Shown: positions 470 through 12,856 of the stretch, in pieces | How positions within the stretch are numbered: position 1 is the first letter of the stretch | How the letters are laid out: the number at the start of each line of letters is the position of its first letter | Assembly (NCBI GenBank): GCA_013041745.1 | Contig: JABDRN010000026.1 | Span: 96,051-160,050 of the forward strand | DNA from: Gammaproteobacteria bacterium | GTDB lineage: Bacteria; Pseudomonadota; Gammaproteobacteria; SZUA-229 | Reading direction: 5' to 3' | Length of the DNA: 64,000 nucleotides | Position numbers and translations under genes: made by a program | The notes under the pieces: model-generated | Database searches by the model: none | What the model saw: only the letters and a program-made list of their open reading frames with translations | Told to the model about the DNA's origin: nothing

Positions 470-1582
470 TCATTTTGACGGACAGCATTCGTCATACCGG
501 GTGATGCCGTCACGCTTCTCATACCAGTCTACGGTTGAATTGACAACACGAACGGCTAACAGCATGACCGGCACTTCGATCAGGACGCCGACGACAGTCG
601 CCAGTGCAGCGCCTGACTCAAAACCAAATAGAGCGATTGCAGTAGCAACGGCAAGTTCGAAAAAATTACTGGCACCGATCAATGCGGAAGGTCCAGCGAC
701 ACAGTGCGGTGACTTTACGGCACGGTTGAGCAGGTAGGCTAGTCCTGAATTGAACAATACCTGTATCAGGATAGGTACAGCCAGCAATAAGATAATCAAA
801 GGCTGCTTTAAAATCTGCTCACCCTGAAAGCCGAACAGTAAAACCAGTGTCGTAAGTAATGCGCCCAGAGACCAGGGGTGAAGTGTCCTGAGTGCACTGT
901 CCAGCCGCTTTGGTCCAGCGTCGCCAGCAAGGAATAGTCTGCGCAATATATTGGCGATTATCAGTGGCACAACGATGTATAGCAACACGGATAGAAACAG
1001 TGTGTCCCAGGGAACCGAGATGGACGACAAGCCAAGCAACAGGGCAACGATCGGCGCAAATGCAAACACCATGATGACATCGTTTAATGCGACCTGTGTC
1101 AGCGTGAAATGGGGTTCACCGCGTGACAGGTTGCTCCAGACAAACACCATCGCAGTACAGGGCGCAGCTGCTAACAGGATGAGCCCGGCAATATAGCTGT
1201 CGATCTGGTCTTCCGGTAACCAGCCTCGAAACAGGTAGCCAATAAACAGCCAGCCCAGTAATGCCATCGAAAACGGTTTTACTCCCCAGTTAACAAACAG
1301 GGTGACACCAATACCACGCCAGTGTACACCGACATCTTTCAATGCTCCCAGATCGATCTTGAGTAACATCGGAATGATCATCAACCAGATCAGGAATGCA
1401 ACGGGCATGTTTATCTGCGCGATTTCTAGTTGGCCGATGCTCTGAAAAAACTGTGGTGCCAGATGACCGAGTCCGATTCCGGCAATGATGCAAAGTGCCA
1501 CCCACAGGGTAAGGTAACGTTCGAAAATACCCATATCAGCATTCGCTGATCGTTTTACAGTGGCCTCACATTGCAATGACAT
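470..1582 (-). CDS. acr3: ACR3 family arsenite efflux transporter
   Basis: 370 aa, multi-TM, NMPVAFLIWLMIIPMLLKID and AAPCTAMVFVWS motifs typical of Acr3; adjacent arsC/arsR. Confidence 0.92.
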   Translation of the reverse strand: MSLQCEATVKRSANADMGIFERYLTLWVALCIIAGIGLGHLAPQFFQSIGQLEIAQINMPVAFLIWLMIIPMLLKIDLGALKDVGVHWRGIGVTLFVNWGVKPFSMALLGWLFIGYLFRGWLPEDQIDSYIAGLILLAAAPCTAMVFVWSNLSRGEPHFTLTQVALNDVIMVFAFAPIVALLLGLSSISVPWDTLFLSVLLYIVVPLIIANILRRLFLAGDAGPKRLDSALRTLHPWSLGALLTTLVLLFGFQGEQILKQPLIILLLAVPILIQVLFNSGLAYLLNRAVKSPHCVAGPSALIGASNFFELAVATAIALFGFESGAALATVVGVLIEVPVMLLAVRVVNSTVDWYEKRDGITRYDECCPSK

Positions 1583-1587
1583 AATGC

Positions 1588-2025
1588 CTACCTACTCATA
1601 TCTTGACGAAGTTGCTGCAACAGGTCGTTAACACGTTGCCTGATATCATCACGACTGGCACGAAAGACATCCATGATCTCTTCTTCAGAACCTTCCGCTT
1701 TCGCGGGATCATCCAGCGGCCAGTGGATTTTGTCAGTACCAGCTGGTAATACAGGGCAATGCTCATCGGCATGGCCGCAGACTGTGACTACCAGGTCTGC
1801 CTGTTCGAGCATCTCATCGCTTACTTTAGTCGATTCCTGTTCGGAGATATCGGCACCTGCCTGCTTCATTACTTCGATAGCACGCGGATTTTTTCCATGT
1901 GTCTCGATGCCGGCAGACTGAACTTCAAATAATGCACGGCCATATAATTTGGCCCAGCCTTCAGCCATCTGTGATCGGCAGGAGTTACCTGTACATAAAA
2001 ATAAAATGTTGTATTTTTCTTTCAC
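1588..2025 (-). CDS. arsC: Arsenate reductase, low-MW phosphatase type
   Basis: [23 protein letters not shown]-loop; probable GTG start at 2025 rather than the longer ORF overlapping arsR. Confidence 0.9.
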
Positions 2026-2047
2026 GATAATTCCACATGCTGCAGGC

Positions 2048-2401
2048 CTAGGCGCAGCAGGCTTTTCCTGGTCTGTCGACCATATTGTCGAGTATCTTTC
2101 TGTCTGAGATAAACGGTTCAGTTTCACGAACACCGTCAAGGGTCGTCTGCAGGATCTTTAGTGCCCAACCCTGCAGATCAGGATTGATGCGGTAGTTCAT
2201 CCAGGTGCCATCGCGGCGGGCGATGAGCACGCCGGCTTCGCGCAGGTGTGCCAGGTGACGCGATATTTTGGGTTGCGACAGGTTAAGTGCATGTGTCAGC
2301 TCACAGACGCATAATTCACCTTCCGTCTGCATCAAAAGCAGGCAGCGTAACCGGGTACTGTCGGCCAGCATCTTAAAAAAAGTATCGGTTTCATTTAGCA
2401 T
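2048..2401 (-). CDS. arsR: ArsR family metalloregulator
   Basis: [31 protein letters not shown]: wHTH with CVC arsenite-sensing motif. Confidence 0.93.
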
Positions 2402-2407
2402 CGGTAC

Positions 2408-2436
2408 AATATACGTATAAACATATATATGGTCAA
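2408..2436 (-). promoter_or_regulatory. Putative sigma-70 promoter of arsR-arsC-acr3 (-35 TTGACC, 17-nt spacer, -10 TATATT)
   Basis: Minus strand TTGACC (2436-2431), TATATT (2413-2408); AT-rich dyad atacgtat/cgtatat overlaps. Confidence 0.6.
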
Positions 2437-2730
2437 GCGTATATAACAGTTTTTCAGAAACATTTATCTAGTGTCTATCAATTACATCTAACGTCCGCTA
2501 TTGGCTGATAGCAGGGCAGATCTGATTCAAGCTCGAGTCCCATCGGCTTAGGCTTTTCGTTTTTCGCCTTCGACTTCTAACTGGAGTAAACACATATGAA
2601 GGTTCCATGAGTTAGCCTAATGATAACTGAGTGAGGCTTTCATTATTATTCAGTTTAACCGTGTCTGGTCTGGACATGAGTTTCATGTAAGAATATATCT
2701 TCTTTGTTTGATCGCTCAGGAAATCTCTTC

Positions 2731-3117
2731 ATGAACTTAATACATCGTACTCTGCTACTAGTTTTATCGTTTACCTTGGTTTTGCTACCCGTGGCTAATG
2801 CTCAGGCTGCTCTGGTTGCAAATGGTCAACTCATTCAACAGTTTCAGCAGGTCAGTGATAAAGATGCTTTGCTGCAGACCATTAATCGCTCAGACGTTCA
2901 GGAACAGCTGTCAGATATGGGTGTGAGTACTGCTGATATCGAGAATCGCATTAACCAGATGACCGGTGAAGAGATCGCTCAACTGAATCAGCAGATAAAT
3001 GAACTGCCGGCTGGCGGTGATATTGTTGGCATCATAGTCCTTTTATTCATAGTCTTTGTAATAACGGATGTGATAGGTGCAACGGATATCTTCCCATTCA
3101 TTCATCCCGTTAAGTAA
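2731..3117 (+). CDS. PA2779 family protein (small secreted/membrane protein)
   Basis: Signal peptide, amphipathic middle, C-terminal TM; directly upstream of a PA2778-like peptidase; ATG at 2731. Confidence 0.7.
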   Translation: MNLIHRTLLLVLSFTLVLLPVANAQAALVANGQLIQQFQQVSDKDALLQTINRSDVQEQLSDMGVSTADIENRINQMTGEEIAQLNQQINELPAGGDIVGIIVLLFIVFVITDVIGATDIFPFIHPVK

Positions 3118-3127
3118 CTTATAATGA

Positions 3128-4096
3128 ATGAAAATTCTAAGCCTGGTTTTAAGCCTGCTGATGCTGTGCAGTTGCGCTTCAACACCACAGAGCAGGGAGA
3201 TACATAATAACGGGCCAGGTTCGTTGCCGACTGCAGTCGAACTGTCAGATACACCGTTCTTTCCGCAGACAGACTACCAATGCGGACCTGCTGCACTGGC
3301 GACAGTGTTGCAAACCCATGGTATCGAAGCTTCACCTGAAAAGTTATCCAGTCAGGTTTATATTCCCGGGCGTAAAGGTAGCCTGCAGATTGAGATGACT
3401 GCGGCGACCCGACGCTATGGAATGCTTCCTTATAAATTAGAACCAAGCTTGCTTGACCTGTTCGCTGAAATACATGCTGGTAATCCGGTACTGGTACTGC
3501 AGAATCTTGGATTTGAATGGTATCCCAATTGGCATTATGCGGTTGTTGTTGGCTATGATACTGATAATAATGAGATCATTCTACGTTCCGGTACGACAAG
3601 ACGTTGGGTTGCACCTCTCGAAGTATTTGAGCGCACATGGCAGCGCGCTGATTTCTGGGCGCTGGTCATCGTACCAGTCGGCCAGGTACCAGACACTGCC
3701 AGGCCCCTGTCTTTTCTAAAAACAGTTTATGCCTTCGAAGAAACAGGTAAGCCGAAACTGGCATTTAAGTCTTATCGATCTGCCAGCGAGCGATGGCCTG
3801 AAATTAGTCTCACCTGGATGGCACTTGGTAATATAGCCCTGGTTAACCAGGATCTGCCAGAAGCAATCCGCGCATTTAATATTGCGATAAGTCTTGAACC
3901 TGATTTAAGTTCGGGCTGGAATAACCTGGCTTATGCATTACGTGCCTATGGTTGTGCAGGACAGGCTCAGGCGGCGCTTTCCTGCGGGTTGAGTATCACC
4001 CCCGATGACAGCAACCTGCAGGATTCAAAGCGAGACCTTTTCGATGGGTCTATAGATAGTAGTAATGTCGAGTGTCCAATCATTCAGTGTGATTGA
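3128..4096 (+). CDS. PA2778 family cysteine peptidase (C39-like domain plus TPR), lipoprotein
   Basis: Lipobox LLMLCSCAS, FFPQTDYQCGPAALATVL (C39-type Cys), TPR-like C-terminus. Confidence 0.8.
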   Translation: MKILSLVLSLLMLCSCASTPQSREIHNNGPGSLPTAVELSDTPFFPQTDYQCGPAALATVLQTHGIEASPEKLSSQVYIPGRKGSLQIEMTAATRRYGMLPYKLEPSLLDLFAEIHAGNPVLVLQNLGFEWYPNWHYAVVVGYDTDNNEIILRSGTTRRWVAPLEVFERTWQRADFWALVIVPVGQVPDTARPLSFLKTVYAFEETGKPKLAFKSYRSASERWPEISLTWMALGNIALVNQDLPEAIRAFNIAISLEPDLSSGWNNLAYALRAYGCAGQAQAALSCGLSITPDDSNLQDSKRDLFDGSIDSSNVECPIIQCD

Positions 4097-4230
4097 ATGT
4101 GCAGCTAGCATTATAAATGGTGCATGGTTGGGCGCTAATATCAGACTGATGTTTGCTGCGGTGCCAGCACTAAAAATCATTGATCGATCGAAAGCGTTCC
4201 TTTAAGCAAAGCTGATAACTGATAGCAGGA

Positions 4231-4788
4231 CTAAGTGGTGAAGGACTGACTGGCTTTTGGCTTCTTCAGCAAAACATAAACCGCACCGTTGCCGCCATCT
4301 TTAGGCTGCGCCGAATGAAATGCCAGCACATTATCAACGGCTCTAAGCCAGCGGTTAAGCATTGGTTTGATGACTGGTTTGTCCTTGGAACGAAAACCTT
4401 TGCCATGCACGATGATAACATGGCGCAGGCCGGCGGCCTCACAATCGCCGAGAAATACCTGCAGCTCTTTTCTAGCCTCTGCCACGGTTAGTCCATGCAG
4501 GTCGAGTAAGTGCTCGACGGGCTGCTTTCCCTGGCGCAGTTTTTTCAGCACGCTGTGTTGCAACCCGCTGCGGGAAAAACTGAGGATGTCGGGGCACTCT
4601 TCGATAATTTCCGCATCGGAGAACGCATCGTCGATAGTAAAGCTGTCTATATTCGCGATGGCCTGCTTAAGCGGTTTTTTAGGTGGTTTCTTAATCTTTA
4701 CCTTATTATCAGATTTTAACGGCGTAACATCACGCATTTCCGCGAGAAATAGCGATTCTTCTTCATTTTTTGTTGAATCATCACTCAT
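4231..4788 (-). CDS. Smr domain protein
   Basis: LDLHGLTVAEARKEL...VIIVHGKGFRSKDKPVIKPML is the Smr signature. Confidence 0.88.
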   Translation of the reverse strand: MSDDSTKNEEESLFLAEMRDVTPLKSDNKVKIKKPPKKPLKQAIANIDSFTIDDAFSDAEIIEECPDILSFSRSGLQHSVLKKLRQGKQPVEHLLDLHGLTVAEARKELQVFLGDCEAAGLRHVIIVHGKGFRSKDKPVIKPMLNRWLRAVDNVLAFHSAQPKDGGNGAVYVLLKKPKASQSFTT

Positions 4789-4854
4789 CAGGACTCGCTC
4801 AATAAGGTATAGTTACGGCTTATTTTATCGTTAATTATTGATCTTGTAACGCGT

Positions 4855-5604
4855 GTGAATATTTTAGTTTCCAATGATGATGGTTACCGGGCACCGGGCA
4901 TTGCGGTGCTCGCCGAGGCGCTTTCGCTTGAGCATGAGGTATCGGTGGTAGCACCTGAGCGTAACTGTAGCGGAGCGAGCAATTCGCTGACCCTGGAACG
5001 CGGTCTGCGTGCCAGCAAGGTTGCCGAGAATTCTTATTTTGTCGATGGTACCCCGACCGATACGGTGCACCTGGCCGTGACCGGCCTGCTGGATAAAACA
5101 CCTGATATGGTCGTATCCGGTATCAATGCCGGCGCCAATATGGGTGATGATGTTTTATATTCGGGCACCGTTGCCGCAGCAATGGAGGGCAGGCATCTCG
5201 GCTTGCCGGCGATCGCGGTGTCGATGGATTCTTTTACCCCGGAGCATTATGAAACAGCTGCCAAAGCAGTAGTAAAACTGCTTGCTGATCTGAAACAGGC
5301 GTCCTTTGCTGCTAATACGATTCTGAACATAAATGTGCCTGATATACCCTGGACTGAGATCAAAGGATTTAAGGCGACCCGCCTGGGTAACCGGCATAAG
5401 TCCGAAGGGATGATAATCCAGAAAGATCCCCGCGGTGATCCGATGTACTGGGTCGGCCCGCCAGGCGAAGCGCAGGATGCTGGTGAGGGCACTGATTTTC
5501 ATGCCGTCAGCCAGCATTATGTGTCCATTACACCACTACAGATCGACTTAACCCGATATAATACCCTGAACGAGCTGGAAGACTGGCTGAAGATACATAT
5601 ATAG
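4855..5604 (+). CDS. surE: 5'/3'-nucleotidase SurE
   Basis: [16 protein letters not shown]..., [26 protein letters not shown]. Confidence 0.97.
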
Positions 5605-5619
5605 ATAAAGCACGACTAG

Positions 5620-6288
5620 ATGATTAGTAACGACATTCAGGGTATAGGTATGACCTCGCAGAGAACAAGGGATCGCCTTGTTGACCGCCTGCGTGATAAA
5701 GGTATAAAGAACGAAAGCGTGCTCGAAGTGATACGGACCACACCGCGGCATATCTTCGTCGATGAAGCGATGGCACATCGTGCTTATGAGGATACTGCAT
5801 TGCCGATCGGCCATGGCCAGACAATCTCTCAGCCATATATCGTTGCCAGGATGTCGGAGATTTTACTCGAAGGCGGTACGCCTGACGTGGTCCTCGAGGT
5901 CGGAACGGGCTCTGGTTATCAGTCGGCGATCCTGTCACGCCTGGTGCCTAAGGTTTATACGGTGGAGCGGATCAGCGCGCTTTTGCAAAAGGCACGAGAT
6001 GCGCACAGGAAGATGGGATTGATGAATGTTTTCTCCAAGCATAGTGATGGCTCATGGGGCTGGGAGCCAAATGCACCCTATGCTGCAATCATGGTGACAG
6101 CAGCACCAAAGACCGTGCCGCCAAGTCTGCTGCAACAACTTGCTGTCGGTGGTCGCATGGTAATTCCTGTTGGCTCTAGTGGTGGTGTTCAGGAACTGAA
6201 ACTTTATCTGCGAACGGCAGATGGTATAGAGGAGTCTACCTTGGAAATAGTGAACTTTGTTCCTCTTCTTGACGGAGCTGTACGATAA
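5620..6288 (+). CDS. pcm: Protein-L-isoaspartate O-methyltransferase
   Basis: [48 protein letters not shown]. Confidence 0.97.
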
Positions 6289-10018: not shown

Positions 10019-11329
10019 TTGAGCGCAGTTAAAGTTGGTCTATTGGGGCTGGGAACAGTCGGTGGCGGTACGGCCACAGTTTTGATAAGAAATGCCGAAG
10101 AGATTCAGGCACGATTGGGTCGTACTATCGAGATATCTCATGTTGCCGGATTACACATTGCGTCACAGACCATCGTCGATCCGGCAAAAACAAAACTGAC
10201 AGAAGATGCTTTTGAGGTAGTCAATGACCCGGATGTGCAAATCGTAGTAGAGCTCATCGGTGGTTATACCCTGGCAAAAGACCTGGTATTAAAAGCTATA
10301 GAAAACGGCAAACATGTTGTTACGGCAAACAAAGCATTGATCGCGACGCATGGCCCTGAGATCATGCGGGCTGCAGCGGCGCAGGGGGTCAGTGTCAGCT
10401 ATGAAGCAGCCGTTGCTGGTGGTATACCTATCATCAAGGCGATGCGTGAAGGCCTTGCTGCGAACAAGATTCAATGGATTGCAGGTATCATCAATGGAAC
10501 TGGTAATTTTATTTTGACAGAGATGCGCGACAAGGGGCGTGATTTTGCTGATGTACTCAAAGAGGCGCAGCAGCTGGGTTATGCCGAAGCTGATCCTACC
10601 TTCGACGTAGAAGGTATCGATGCGGCGCATAAGTTAACAATACTTGCTTCGCTGGCGTTTGGCATCGAGCTCCAGTTTGATAAGACATATACAGAAGGCA
10701 TCAGCAAGATTACGACGGAAGATGTCAACTACGCTGAAGAGTTGGGTTATCGTATAAAACATCTGGGTATTACCCGTAAAACTGATAAAGGTATAGAGCT
10801 ACGTGTGCATCCGACTCTGATACCTGAGAAACGACTGATAGCAAATGTTGACGGTGTAATGAACGCAGTGCTGGTGCAGGGTGATGCTGTTGGCCCGACC
10901 CTGTATTATGGTGCAGGTGCCGGTGCTGAACCGACCGCATCTGCAGTCGTTGCAGATATTATAGATACGGTGAGAACTATCGATGCACCTCTACATCACA
11001 AGGTTCCGCTACTGGGTTTTCAAGATGATGCGATCAGAGATACCCCGGTACTCGCTATTGATGATGTCGAGTCAGCATATTACCTGAGGATGCTTGCCGA
11101 AGATCATCCGGGTGTTTTAGCTGAAGTGTCAGATACTTTCGCCAAGAACAGTATCAGTATCGAAGCCGTTATACAAAAGGAGCCTGCAACTGGAGAGAAC
11201 ACGGTGCACTTGGTGATGCTGACGCAAAAATGTGTTGAGTCGACTGTCAATCAGGCGATAAAAGCTGTTGAGAGCCTGGGTTCAGTGCAGGGTGCTGTCG
11301 TGCGTATTCGGATGGAGCACCTGGATTGA
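10019..11329 (+). CDS. hom: Homoserine dehydrogenase
   Basis: VGLLGLGTVGGGTATVL, NGTGNFILTEM, ACT domain C-terminus; TTG start with upstream GAGGAGG. Confidence 0.95.
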   Translation: MSAVKVGLLGLGTVGGGTATVLIRNAEEIQARLGRTIEISHVAGLHIASQTIVDPAKTKLTEDAFEVVNDPDVQIVVELIGGYTLAKDLVLKAIENGKHVVTANKALIATHGPEIMRAAAAQGVSVSYEAAVAGGIPIIKAMREGLAANKIQWIAGIINGTGNFILTEMRDKGRDFADVLKEAQQLGYAEADPTFDVEGIDAAHKLTILASLAFGIELQFDKTYTEGISKITTEDVNYAEELGYRIKHLGITRKTDKGIELRVHPTLIPEKRLIANVDGVMNAVLVQGDAVGPTLYYGAGAGAEPTASAVVADIIDTVRTIDAPLHHKVPLLGFQDDAIRDTPVLAIDDVESAYYLRMLAEDHPGVLAEVSDTFAKNSISIEAVIQKEPATGENTVHLVMLTQKCVESTVNQAIKAVESLGSVQGAVVRIRMEHLD

Positions 11330-11383
11330 TTTTTGCTTTTTGAACGATGCATTTTTCTTGCACTTCTAACATCATTTCTCTTT

Positions 11384-12115
11384 CTCTGTAGGAGCGGAAC
11401 CTTGTTCCGCGATCTCCCTTAGACGCTGCCCAGGTACGTGAATTGTTACCGTGAGTTTCGCCTTTTACGGCGAGTCACTTTTTTTCAGTAGCAAAAGAAA
11501 AGTAACCAAAAGAATGCCATCCCACCTTGTTTGCCCCGAGAAAAGGACTCGGGGTGCCTGAATTCATCACTGTTATCAACGAGCCCGCTCTGATGCGCCG
11601 TCCGGGCGCACAGAGCTAAATTCGCCTTCCCTGGCGAATTTACTCTACCAATAGTGATGAATTCAGCAAACAAAAAGGGAGCAAAAAACCTAAAAGCAAA
11701 ACGGGCGCTTATTAAAGGGTCTGGCAATACTCAGCAACACCTGTTTTTTCTGTTGATTTTTATCCACCTCCACAAGCCACCGAGACAGTGCAGTGATCAT
11801 GGGCTTTCTGTGAAAACTGTCTGAGCGCTTTCTGCGAGTTTTTTCACAACATGATCACTGCACTGTCTCGGTGGCTACCCCTGTGTTTTCTACAGGGGCG
11901 TAGTGGTAGTGGCGGCTTTTTTTGGTTACTTTTTTTAGCTGCTGAAAAAAAGTGACTCGCCGTAAAAGGCGAAACTCACGGTAACAATCCACGTACCTAA
12001 GTGGCATCTAAAAGAGAATTCGCGGAACAAGACTATTCAGTATATCCCTATGCTTCACCCTTATCGGGGCTTACTTGAAAAACTGTTCCAGACTGTTTTT
12101 TCTGCTCCTACAGAG
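11384..12115. repeat. Nested palindromic element with REP-like ends
   Basis: 12-bp terminal IR CTCTGTAGGAGC (11384-11395 / 12104-12115); 60-bp IR with 2 mismatches (11433-11492 / 11938-11997); inner IRs at 11558-11571/11653-11666 and 11775-11801/11850-11876. Confidence 0.9.
11775..11876. repeat. Perfect 27-bp inverted repeat with 48-nt loop
   Basis: AGCCACCGAGACAGTGCAGTGATCATG ... CATGATCACTGCACTGTCTCGGTGGCT. Confidence 0.97.
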
Positions 12116-12147
12116 TGCATCATCTGCACAGTGAGAACCGCAGAAAC

Positions 12148-12177
12148 AAAAAAGCCTCGTGAAAACGAGGCTTTTTT
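12148..12177. terminator. Bidirectional terminator between hom element and yccA
   Basis: AAAAAAGCCTCGT-gaaa-ACGAGGCTTTTTT. Confidence 0.92.
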
Positions 12178-12196
12178 AAATTGAAATCAGCGGAGC

Positions 12197-12856
12197 TTAA
12201 TCATTACCAGAGAATGCACCCAAAATATGCAGCAAACTCAGGAACAGGTTGTAGATGCTGATATACAGTGAAACTGTCGCCATGATGTAATTAGTCTCGC
12301 CACCATGGATGATTTCACTGGTCTGGTACAGGATCATACCTGACATCAATAATACGAACATACCCGATACTGCAAGAGATAGTACAGGCATACTGAATAT
12401 GAATGCACCCAGTCCGGCAAGGAAAGCAACCATGATGCCGACCATCAGGAAACCACCCATGAAGCTGAAATCCTTACGGCTGGTCAATACATAGCCTGAG
12501 AGAGCCAGGAATATTGCACCAGTACCACCTAATGCTGTCATTACGAGCTGTGCGCCATTAGTGGTAGCGAGGTATGCATTAAGAATTGGACCCAGGGTTA
12601 AACCCATGAAACCTGTCAGCATAAATACGAAGAATATGCCCAATCCGCTGTCTCGGAACTTGGCAGTCAAGAACAAAAGTGCTATGTAACCTACCAGTGT
12701 CATCAGTCCGAAGTGGGGCAGGTTTAATGTCATGGAGATACCAGCCGTAGCCGCACTGAACAATAATGTGAGTGCTAGCAAGGCATAGGTATTCTTTAAA
12801 ACCTTGTTGGTCGCAAGTATCTGTGATTCTGAACGAGCGGTTGATATAGATTGCAT
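12197..12856 (-). CDS. yccA: Bax inhibitor-1/YccA family protein
   Basis: 7-TM BI-1 profile, GLTLGPILNAYLA, SLYISIYNLFLSLLHILG. Confidence 0.9.
   Translation of the reverse strand: MQSISTARSESQILATNKVLKNTYALLALTLLFSAATAGISMTLNLPHFGLMTLVGYIALLFLTAKFRDSGLGIFFVFMLTGFMGLTLGPILNAYLATTNGAQLVMTALGGTGAIFLALSGYVLTSRKDFSFMGGFLMVGIMVAFLAGLGAFIFSMPVLSLAVSGMFVLLMSGMILYQTSEIIHGGETNYIMATVSLYISIYNLFLSLLHILGAFSGND

Follow-up and report, generated by a model that had tools for sequence, protein, structure and literature searches.

What is the long palindromic stretch at positions 11384-12115 of the window, i.e. of the 64,000 nucleotides of contig JABDRN010000026.1 (Gammaproteobacteria bacterium, assembly GCA_013041745.1) analysed here, and by what means could it have spread? 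An earlier note had described these 732 bp as a compound non-autonomous element, possibly mobilised by a REP-associated tyrosine transposase (RAYT; REP, repetitive extragenic palindrome), or else as a large structured RNA or DNA cruciform. The stretch was compared with its own genome (G000, a 2.97-Mb draft of 138 contigs) and with other genomes and loci, for which G and L labels are used below. We consider that it is probably one copy of a dispersed non-autonomous element, in which two structured-RNA half-modules stand back to back and face outward, and which is mobilised in trans.

Anatomy of the element and the strand under selection

Two things are nested within the 732 bp: a shell of GTAG-type REPs (about 11384-11412, where the left REP, CTCTGTAGGAGCGGAACCTTGTTCCGCGA, lies on the plus strand, and 12019-12115) and, inside it, the element proper (about 11413-12017). 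The earlier description has therefore to be corrected, as the stretch is a REP shell plus a separate enclosed element of about 600 bp. Its individual repeats were nevertheless all recovered. The terminal inverted repeats are perfect over 12 bp: CTCTGTAGGAGC occupies 11384-11395, and 12104-12115 reads as its exact reverse complement. The 60-bp inverted repeat (11433-11492 versus 11938-11997) has exactly 2 mismatches in 60 and forms part of a 99-nt inverted repeat, 11413-11511/11919-12017, which is 84% complementary. The nested hairpins CCCCGAG, TGAATTCATCACT, TGCGCC and AAATTCGCC lie where they had been placed, the 27-bp inverted repeat (11775-11801/11850-11876) is perfect, and the interior has no credible protein: its largest open reading frame (ORF), on the minus strand, would encode 80 aa. 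When up to 2 mismatches are allowed, the longest inverted repeat reaches 61 bp, whereas 20 dinucleotide shuffles gave 12-22 bp; chance is thereby excluded as the origin of the palindrome.

Read outward, each half would consist of an inner domain (A, the RNA TwoAYGGAY, or B, a long hairpin), then a hairpin P3 and then an arm. Within the arm, an H-type pseudoknot with a triple helix in the major groove would arise from stem P2, the P2 loop and a third strand of pyrimidines, followed by a P1 hairpin or pseudoknot; the two arms would be the terminal inverted repeats of the element. Evidence for this fold came from an alignment of 31 diverse arms, in which 95.2% of helix cells are paired and 12 of 21 pairs have changed on both sides, values that 0 of 500 shuffles reached in either respect; here and below, shuffle tests and wobble counts take copies as independent of kinship. 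The purine tract that follows P2 is a mirror image of the purine strand of this stem. Identity in the mirror register is 0.886 as compared to 0.689 in shuffled tracts (0/2000); it falls to 0.52-0.61 when the mirror register is shifted and does not exceed 0.72 in direct registers, and the G positions of the third tract match at offsets 1, 2, 3, 4, 3+5, 2+4 and 1+6. Moreover, the P2 loop is complementary to the tail beyond the purine tract (mean longest word 3.35 versus 2.16; 0/1000). On the outward strand the arm thus fits an H-type pseudoknot whose pyrimidine loop L1 would run parallel along the major groove of S2, the orientation needed for U.A-U and C.G-C triples. A triple helix in the arm is strongly suggested by these sequence patterns, and by analogy the outward strand fits a telomerase-like triple-helix pseudoknot. 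A purine-motif DNA triplex (H-DNA) on the inward strand was also considered for the mirror repeat and set aside, as the wobble bias and the pseudoknot topology favour an outward RNA.

RNA helices tolerate G.U pairs well and C.A pairs not, so the balance of the two indicates the selected strand. The hairpin of half B, read on the plus strand, has 66 G.U against 5 C.A, along with 77 double changes; the outer stem of half A on the same strand has 5 G.U against 36 C.A, and P2, across 104 distinct stems read inward, has 9 G.U against 38 C.A. By this bias half A and the left arm appear to be selected as RNA on the minus strand, half B and the right arm on the plus strand. Evolution of the A, B and arm stems as RNA read outward from the centre thus appears well supported. 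Of the structured RNA and the DNA cruciform offered in the earlier note, the same bias favours the RNA. Folding energies were z = -5.2 for half A and z = -7.8 for half B (folded on minus).

On the minus strand of the window copy, half A (11543-11681) lies directly 5' of the left arm, and its P3 hairpin CCCCGAG/CTCGGGG (11534-11554), assigned from sequence, is nearly invariant in the genus alignment and hence uninformative for covariation. The left arm, recognised as an inverted repeat of 99 nt (11413-11511) with its RNA-like strand outward, contains a folded motif at 11449-11521, matched by the arm model at G000:C128:107499-107571 with 64 bits. Its stem P2 (11474-11506) shows compensatory changes and wobble bias; the third-strand tract AAAAGAA, together with the TGCC that would pair with the P2 loop, follows at 11508-11518 and is marked by mirror identity and loop-tail complementarity. 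On the plus strand, half B (11775-11876) is a long hairpin with the perfect 27-bp stem, supported by inverted repeat and covariation, and its P3 hairpin CCCCTGT/ACAGGGG (11878-11898) was read from sequence as well. The right arm (11919-12017, an inverted repeat with the RNA-like strand again outward) has its folded motif at 11911-11981 (G000:C128:107961-108031, 75 bits) and P2 at 11925-11956, with the third-strand T-tract and GGCGGC just 5', at about 11911-11924. Between the divergent halves remains a centre (11682-11774) to which no strand is assigned and where other copies hold cargo genes.

The assignment of half A rests on its score of 57.6 bits against TwoAYGGAY (RF01731; gathering score 43, E 3.8e-8, minus strand), which places it within that family. 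Across the genus, TwoAYGGAY was recognised in 10 of 18 genomes with a total of 37 matches, nearly all of them above the gathering cut-off. In G000, G004 and G010, an arm is 3'-adjacent on the outward strand in 19 of 21 matches, and the remaining two adjoin arms in which about 77 nt are inserted into the P2 loop. Outside the genus, TwoAYGGAY stands beside arms at L203, L204, L206 and L208 (38-55 bits, against the gathering score of 43), with a weaker match at L200. It should be added that the P2-loop insert, found in L098, L099, L100, L105, L040 and L089, has its own hairpins (GAATAACATCCATGTTATTC... GGGCCGAGCAAAGCTCGTTC) and is a further nested repeat.

Copies, pairing and passenger genes

The stretch has 85 BLAST matches in its own genome and matches in 16 of 17 other genomes of the genus, and the arm model finds 44 arms in G000. 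A single copy with no conserved arms in relatives, which the earlier note had named as the outcome that would argue against a repeat family, is thus not what was found. At a cut-off of E <= 1e-5 the arm model matched 41 of 369 sampled Gammaproteobacteria genomes (about 11%) in 36 genera; its E-values are rough, so that the weakest single matches may be chance. Arms also lie within the first few hundred bases of G000 contigs C35, C120, C94, C51, C117, C16, C102, C126, C50 and C87. So many arms at contig ends indicate that assembly breaks off at the element, and this genome probably has more copies than were counted.

The core common to relatives corresponds to positions 86-578 of the query, and separate matches were obtained to 86-306 (half A), 354-578 (half B) and 637-730 (the REP-type block), from which it follows that the 732 bp are modular. 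The halves occur in different combinations: many copies in G000 are B-B, the window copy is A-B and G004 has A-A pairs. The shell is separable as well, since many copies of the element have no REP shell and the REP shell occurs without arms elsewhere in G000 (L033), including a REP pair lacking the element at G000:C131:24.1 kb. The right block of the shell (12019-12115, minus strand; query 637-730) is a dispersed repeat in itself, with solo copies of 81-85% identity at G000:C131, C13 and C101. Within it, 12020-12113 has a structure of its own (solo copies L033, L034 and L036). Taken together, there is good support for the existence of the family, for its modular anatomy and for selection on its halves at the level of RNA.

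Twelve genomes were searched in depth and gave 44 pairs of neighbouring arms no more than 2.5 kb apart. Of these, 38 face inward; outside the genus, 13 of 18 do so. Paired arms are separated by about 270-620 bp when there is no cargo and mostly by 750-2000 bp when there is, and 24 of the 45 copies for which both neighbours could be called lie between convergent genes. Genes unrelated to the element can be placed between halves, and a half then follows them as a structured 3' region. In G004, an A-A' pair (L138, G004:C64:5000-8500, at 716-2847), flanked by DsbD-like and TlpA-like genes, holds a Tae4 amidase of the type VI secretion system (T6SS), its presumed immunity gene and an MreB-like fragment, and a second pair (L140) encloses a Tag glycosylase and a small protein. 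Other pairs hold a methyltransferase (G150, L202) and an SNase-domain protein (G072, L206). At L208 (G369:C28:32500-40000, at 1376-5622) three 300-nt halves are repeated directly, spaced by 1975 and 1972 bp and each behind a gene unit, namely Tae4/Tai4 and then a lipoprotein with a membrane protein; psd and an EpmA/PoxA-like gene border this locus, which has the appearance of a cassette array. Identity between the two Tae4 proteins is only 28%, which argues for their independent capture. An inward arm pair 9.9 kb apart also surrounds a 1778-aa ORF in G149 (L218, G149:C1:751500-763000) and is probably fortuitous, arising from two separate insertions.

A pattern scan of named genomes yielded 25 contigs, all from metagenome-assembled genomes of uncultured Gammaproteobacteria or Pseudomonadota, one of them labelled Thiotrichaceae; to judge from sample names such as HyVt and CSMAG, the carriers may live at vents and cold seeps. 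No DNA match to the element was found in plasmids or in phages, and an origin from either was rejected on this ground. The repeat family was found neither in Rfam 15, apart from TwoAYGGAY, nor in the open-access literature searched, and a literature search on the repeat sequence returned nothing relevant.

What may move the element

Terminal inverted repeats, no coding capacity and multiple copies, the hallmarks of miniature inverted-repeat transposable elements (MITEs), are all present. In G001 a copy lies between yccA and tilS, genes that are adjacent and without the element in six congeners. Active mobility is likely on the strength of copy number, cargo and this empty site: the element would reach new sites on its own chromosome and on others, in some cases inside a pair of REPs, by means of a factor supplied in trans that would recognise the folded ends. 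Several points weigh against this account. The clean empty site is the only one and belongs to a relative's copy rather than to that of the window; target-site duplications were not seen on inspection of 64 copies, in which divergence leaves the exact ends unfixed; and no recombinase or complete transposase gene was noticed inside any pair, the ORF listing being not exhaustive for every copy. Some cargo could be a gene that happened to lie between two separate insertions. On the RNA side, outward transcription of the halves is a prediction from sequence; the arm by itself has no exceptional predicted energy (z = -1.6 and -1.2, with pseudoknot and triples outside the model); the wobble bias of P1 is weak and of opposite direction (14:7), so P1 may have another role; the shuffle tests are uncorrected for relatedness; and the E-values of the model are approximate.

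The REP shell directs attention to a REP/BIME compound (BIME, bacterial interspersed mosaic element) spread by a RAYT (Y1) transposase recognising the GTAG ends. REPs are known RAYT substrates (PMC3733652), the spacing from REP to arm is constant in several copies of G000 and G010, and 16 of the 17 genomes that bear the element have Y1/RAYT-type genes, a count that covers carriers only and gives no base rate. The GTAG foot beside a short palindrome is present in the shell only (11384-11412), however, and instead of short REP units alone, about 600 bp of unrelated structured sequence lie between the REPs; many copies have no shell at all, and the element-rich G017, 97% complete, has no Y1 match. 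A cognate RAYT gene would be flanked by the same repeats, whereas the Y1 loci examined lack arms and GTAG-REPs. The one Y1/RAYT-like gene of G000 (L009:1372-2209, G000:C56), which scores 75.3 against the NCBIfam REP-transposase cutoff of 80, is flanked by unrelated inverted repeats of its own containing GGGGGCAGAGAGC, with no arm or GTAG-REP nearby; related repeats of the GGGTCAGAG type flank Y1 genes in G149 and G106 (L238, L233), and none of the seven Y1 loci examined has an arm motif. This arrangement matches the TIRYT type, whose genes carry their own inverted repeats (PMC3733652). A RAYT was rejected as the mover on this gene context, and we regard the explanation as improbable. Of the earlier proposal, the compound, repeated, non-autonomous and structured nature and the GTAG-REP ends hold, and the mobilisation by RAYT is unsupported.

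The array at L208, in which Tae4/Tai4 and another gene unit separate the three halves, and the lack of a target-site duplication would also suit a cassette system of folded single-stranded DNA, either like an integron or of the HUH type, with the half-modules as recombination sites. We think this unlikely, if marginally less so than a RAYT, because the wobble bias denotes selection on RNA and not on DNA, inverted pairs and not arrays are usual, and no integrase was noticed in the loci inspected, integrases not having been the object of a search. Copying from the structured RNA by a reverse transcriptase would accommodate a gene that has a structured RNA as its 3' region, as at L208, and the third-strand pseudoknot resembles the known fold of telomerase RNA. 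Yet 11 of 17 carriers have no RVT_1 reverse transcriptase, among them the complete or near-complete G149 and G265; such an enzyme was rejected as a general mover, and retro-mobilisation is highly improbable. It should also be added that no autonomous parent transposon with matching ends was found, and that no TnpB/IscB or DEDD recombinase gene was seen within copies, no search having been aimed at such genes.

The strongest competitor, which we still hold to be considerably less probable than a mobile element, is a mainly regulatory RNA repeat, whose outward RNAs would titrate an RNA-binding protein, for instance CsrA, through the GGA loops of TwoAYGGAY, or would protect and terminate transcripts, its dispersal being incidental and due to recombination. 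RNA-level selection acts in all modules, and GGA is kept in the two loops of half A in 22/23 and 16/23 genus copies; in the window they read CCGGAC and AGGGAA, which retain the GGA core with flanking bases that differ from AYGGAY. TwoAYGGAY is an orphan RNA candidate of unknown function (PMC2864571), for which CsrA binding was proposed through motif matching (PMC4333381), and titration of CsrA by these loops is plausible. This idea is motif-based, however, with no GGA-type loop assigned in half B, and it is in mobile DNA that one would sooner expect so many copies, at sites that vary, with A and B in modular combinations and with cargo genes.

The window locus and relation to known systems

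The window copy is flanked by hom (10019-11329, plus strand) and a YccA-like gene (12197-12856, minus strand). This adjacency of hom and yccA is absent in the relatives compared at this locus, several congeners having yccA-tilS instead, and the interval holding the element (11329-12197) is therefore a possible rearrangement point.

The mobile RNA-ended element favoured here shares features with several known systems. Like GTAG REPs, BIMEs, REP doublets (REPINs) and their RAYTs (PMC3733652), it is multi-copy, intergenic, palindromic and possibly RNA-active, with a GTAG-REP pair as its outer shell; unlike them, the inner element is about 600 bp long, occurs without REPs, has putatively pseudoknotted arms and cargo, and shows no link to RAYT. 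Some insertion sequences target REPs (PMC1525189). With MITEs and the Tn3-derived miniature elements called TIMEs (PMC4133298) it has in common its non-autonomy, terminal inverted repeats and the ability to enclose passenger genes, whereas its ends covary as RNA with a mirror third strand, and neither a parent transposase nor a target-site duplication was found. The course of L1 along the S2 major groove recalls telomerase-type and ToxI H-type pseudoknots with loop-stem triples (PMC4627078, for topology); with the U.A-U and C.G-C triples predicted here, the likeness would be a structural analogy in a different context. A structured RNA from a mobile element is also the theme of the omegaRNA of IS605/TnpB and of the bridge RNA or seekRNA of IS110/IS1111, and the TnpB RNA has a pseudoknot and triple helix (PMC10097598, PMC11208160, PMC11187229). 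The present element differs from these by the absence of a nuclease or recombinase gene and by its RNAs at both ends. Half A, finally, scores as TwoAYGGAY, which here would be one domain of a larger outward RNA ending in a triple-helix-type arm, inside a dispersed paired element.

We would advance only as a speculation, and rate as unlikely, that these elements represent a class of mobile gene cassettes, in which outward end RNAs and not DNA terminal repeats are recognised by a trans-acting RNA-dependent enzyme, possibly guided in the manner of omegaRNA or bridge RNA, and which carries genes of use to the host, T6SS effector-immunity pairs for example, about the chromosomes of Gammaproteobacteria. 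A non-autonomous intergenic repeat element is a known kind; should mobility prove to be driven by the RNA, this one could form a separate class. The orphan RNA TwoAYGGAY gains a genomic context and is extended to a larger RNA with a testable third-strand rule, mirror third-strand covariation being a rare signature of an RNA triple helix that can be read from sequence. Furthermore, through a previously unnamed repeat family, present in about a tenth of the sampled Gammaproteobacteria genomes, structured intergenic repeats are connected with passenger genes, antibacterial T6SS pairs of the Tae4 type among them.
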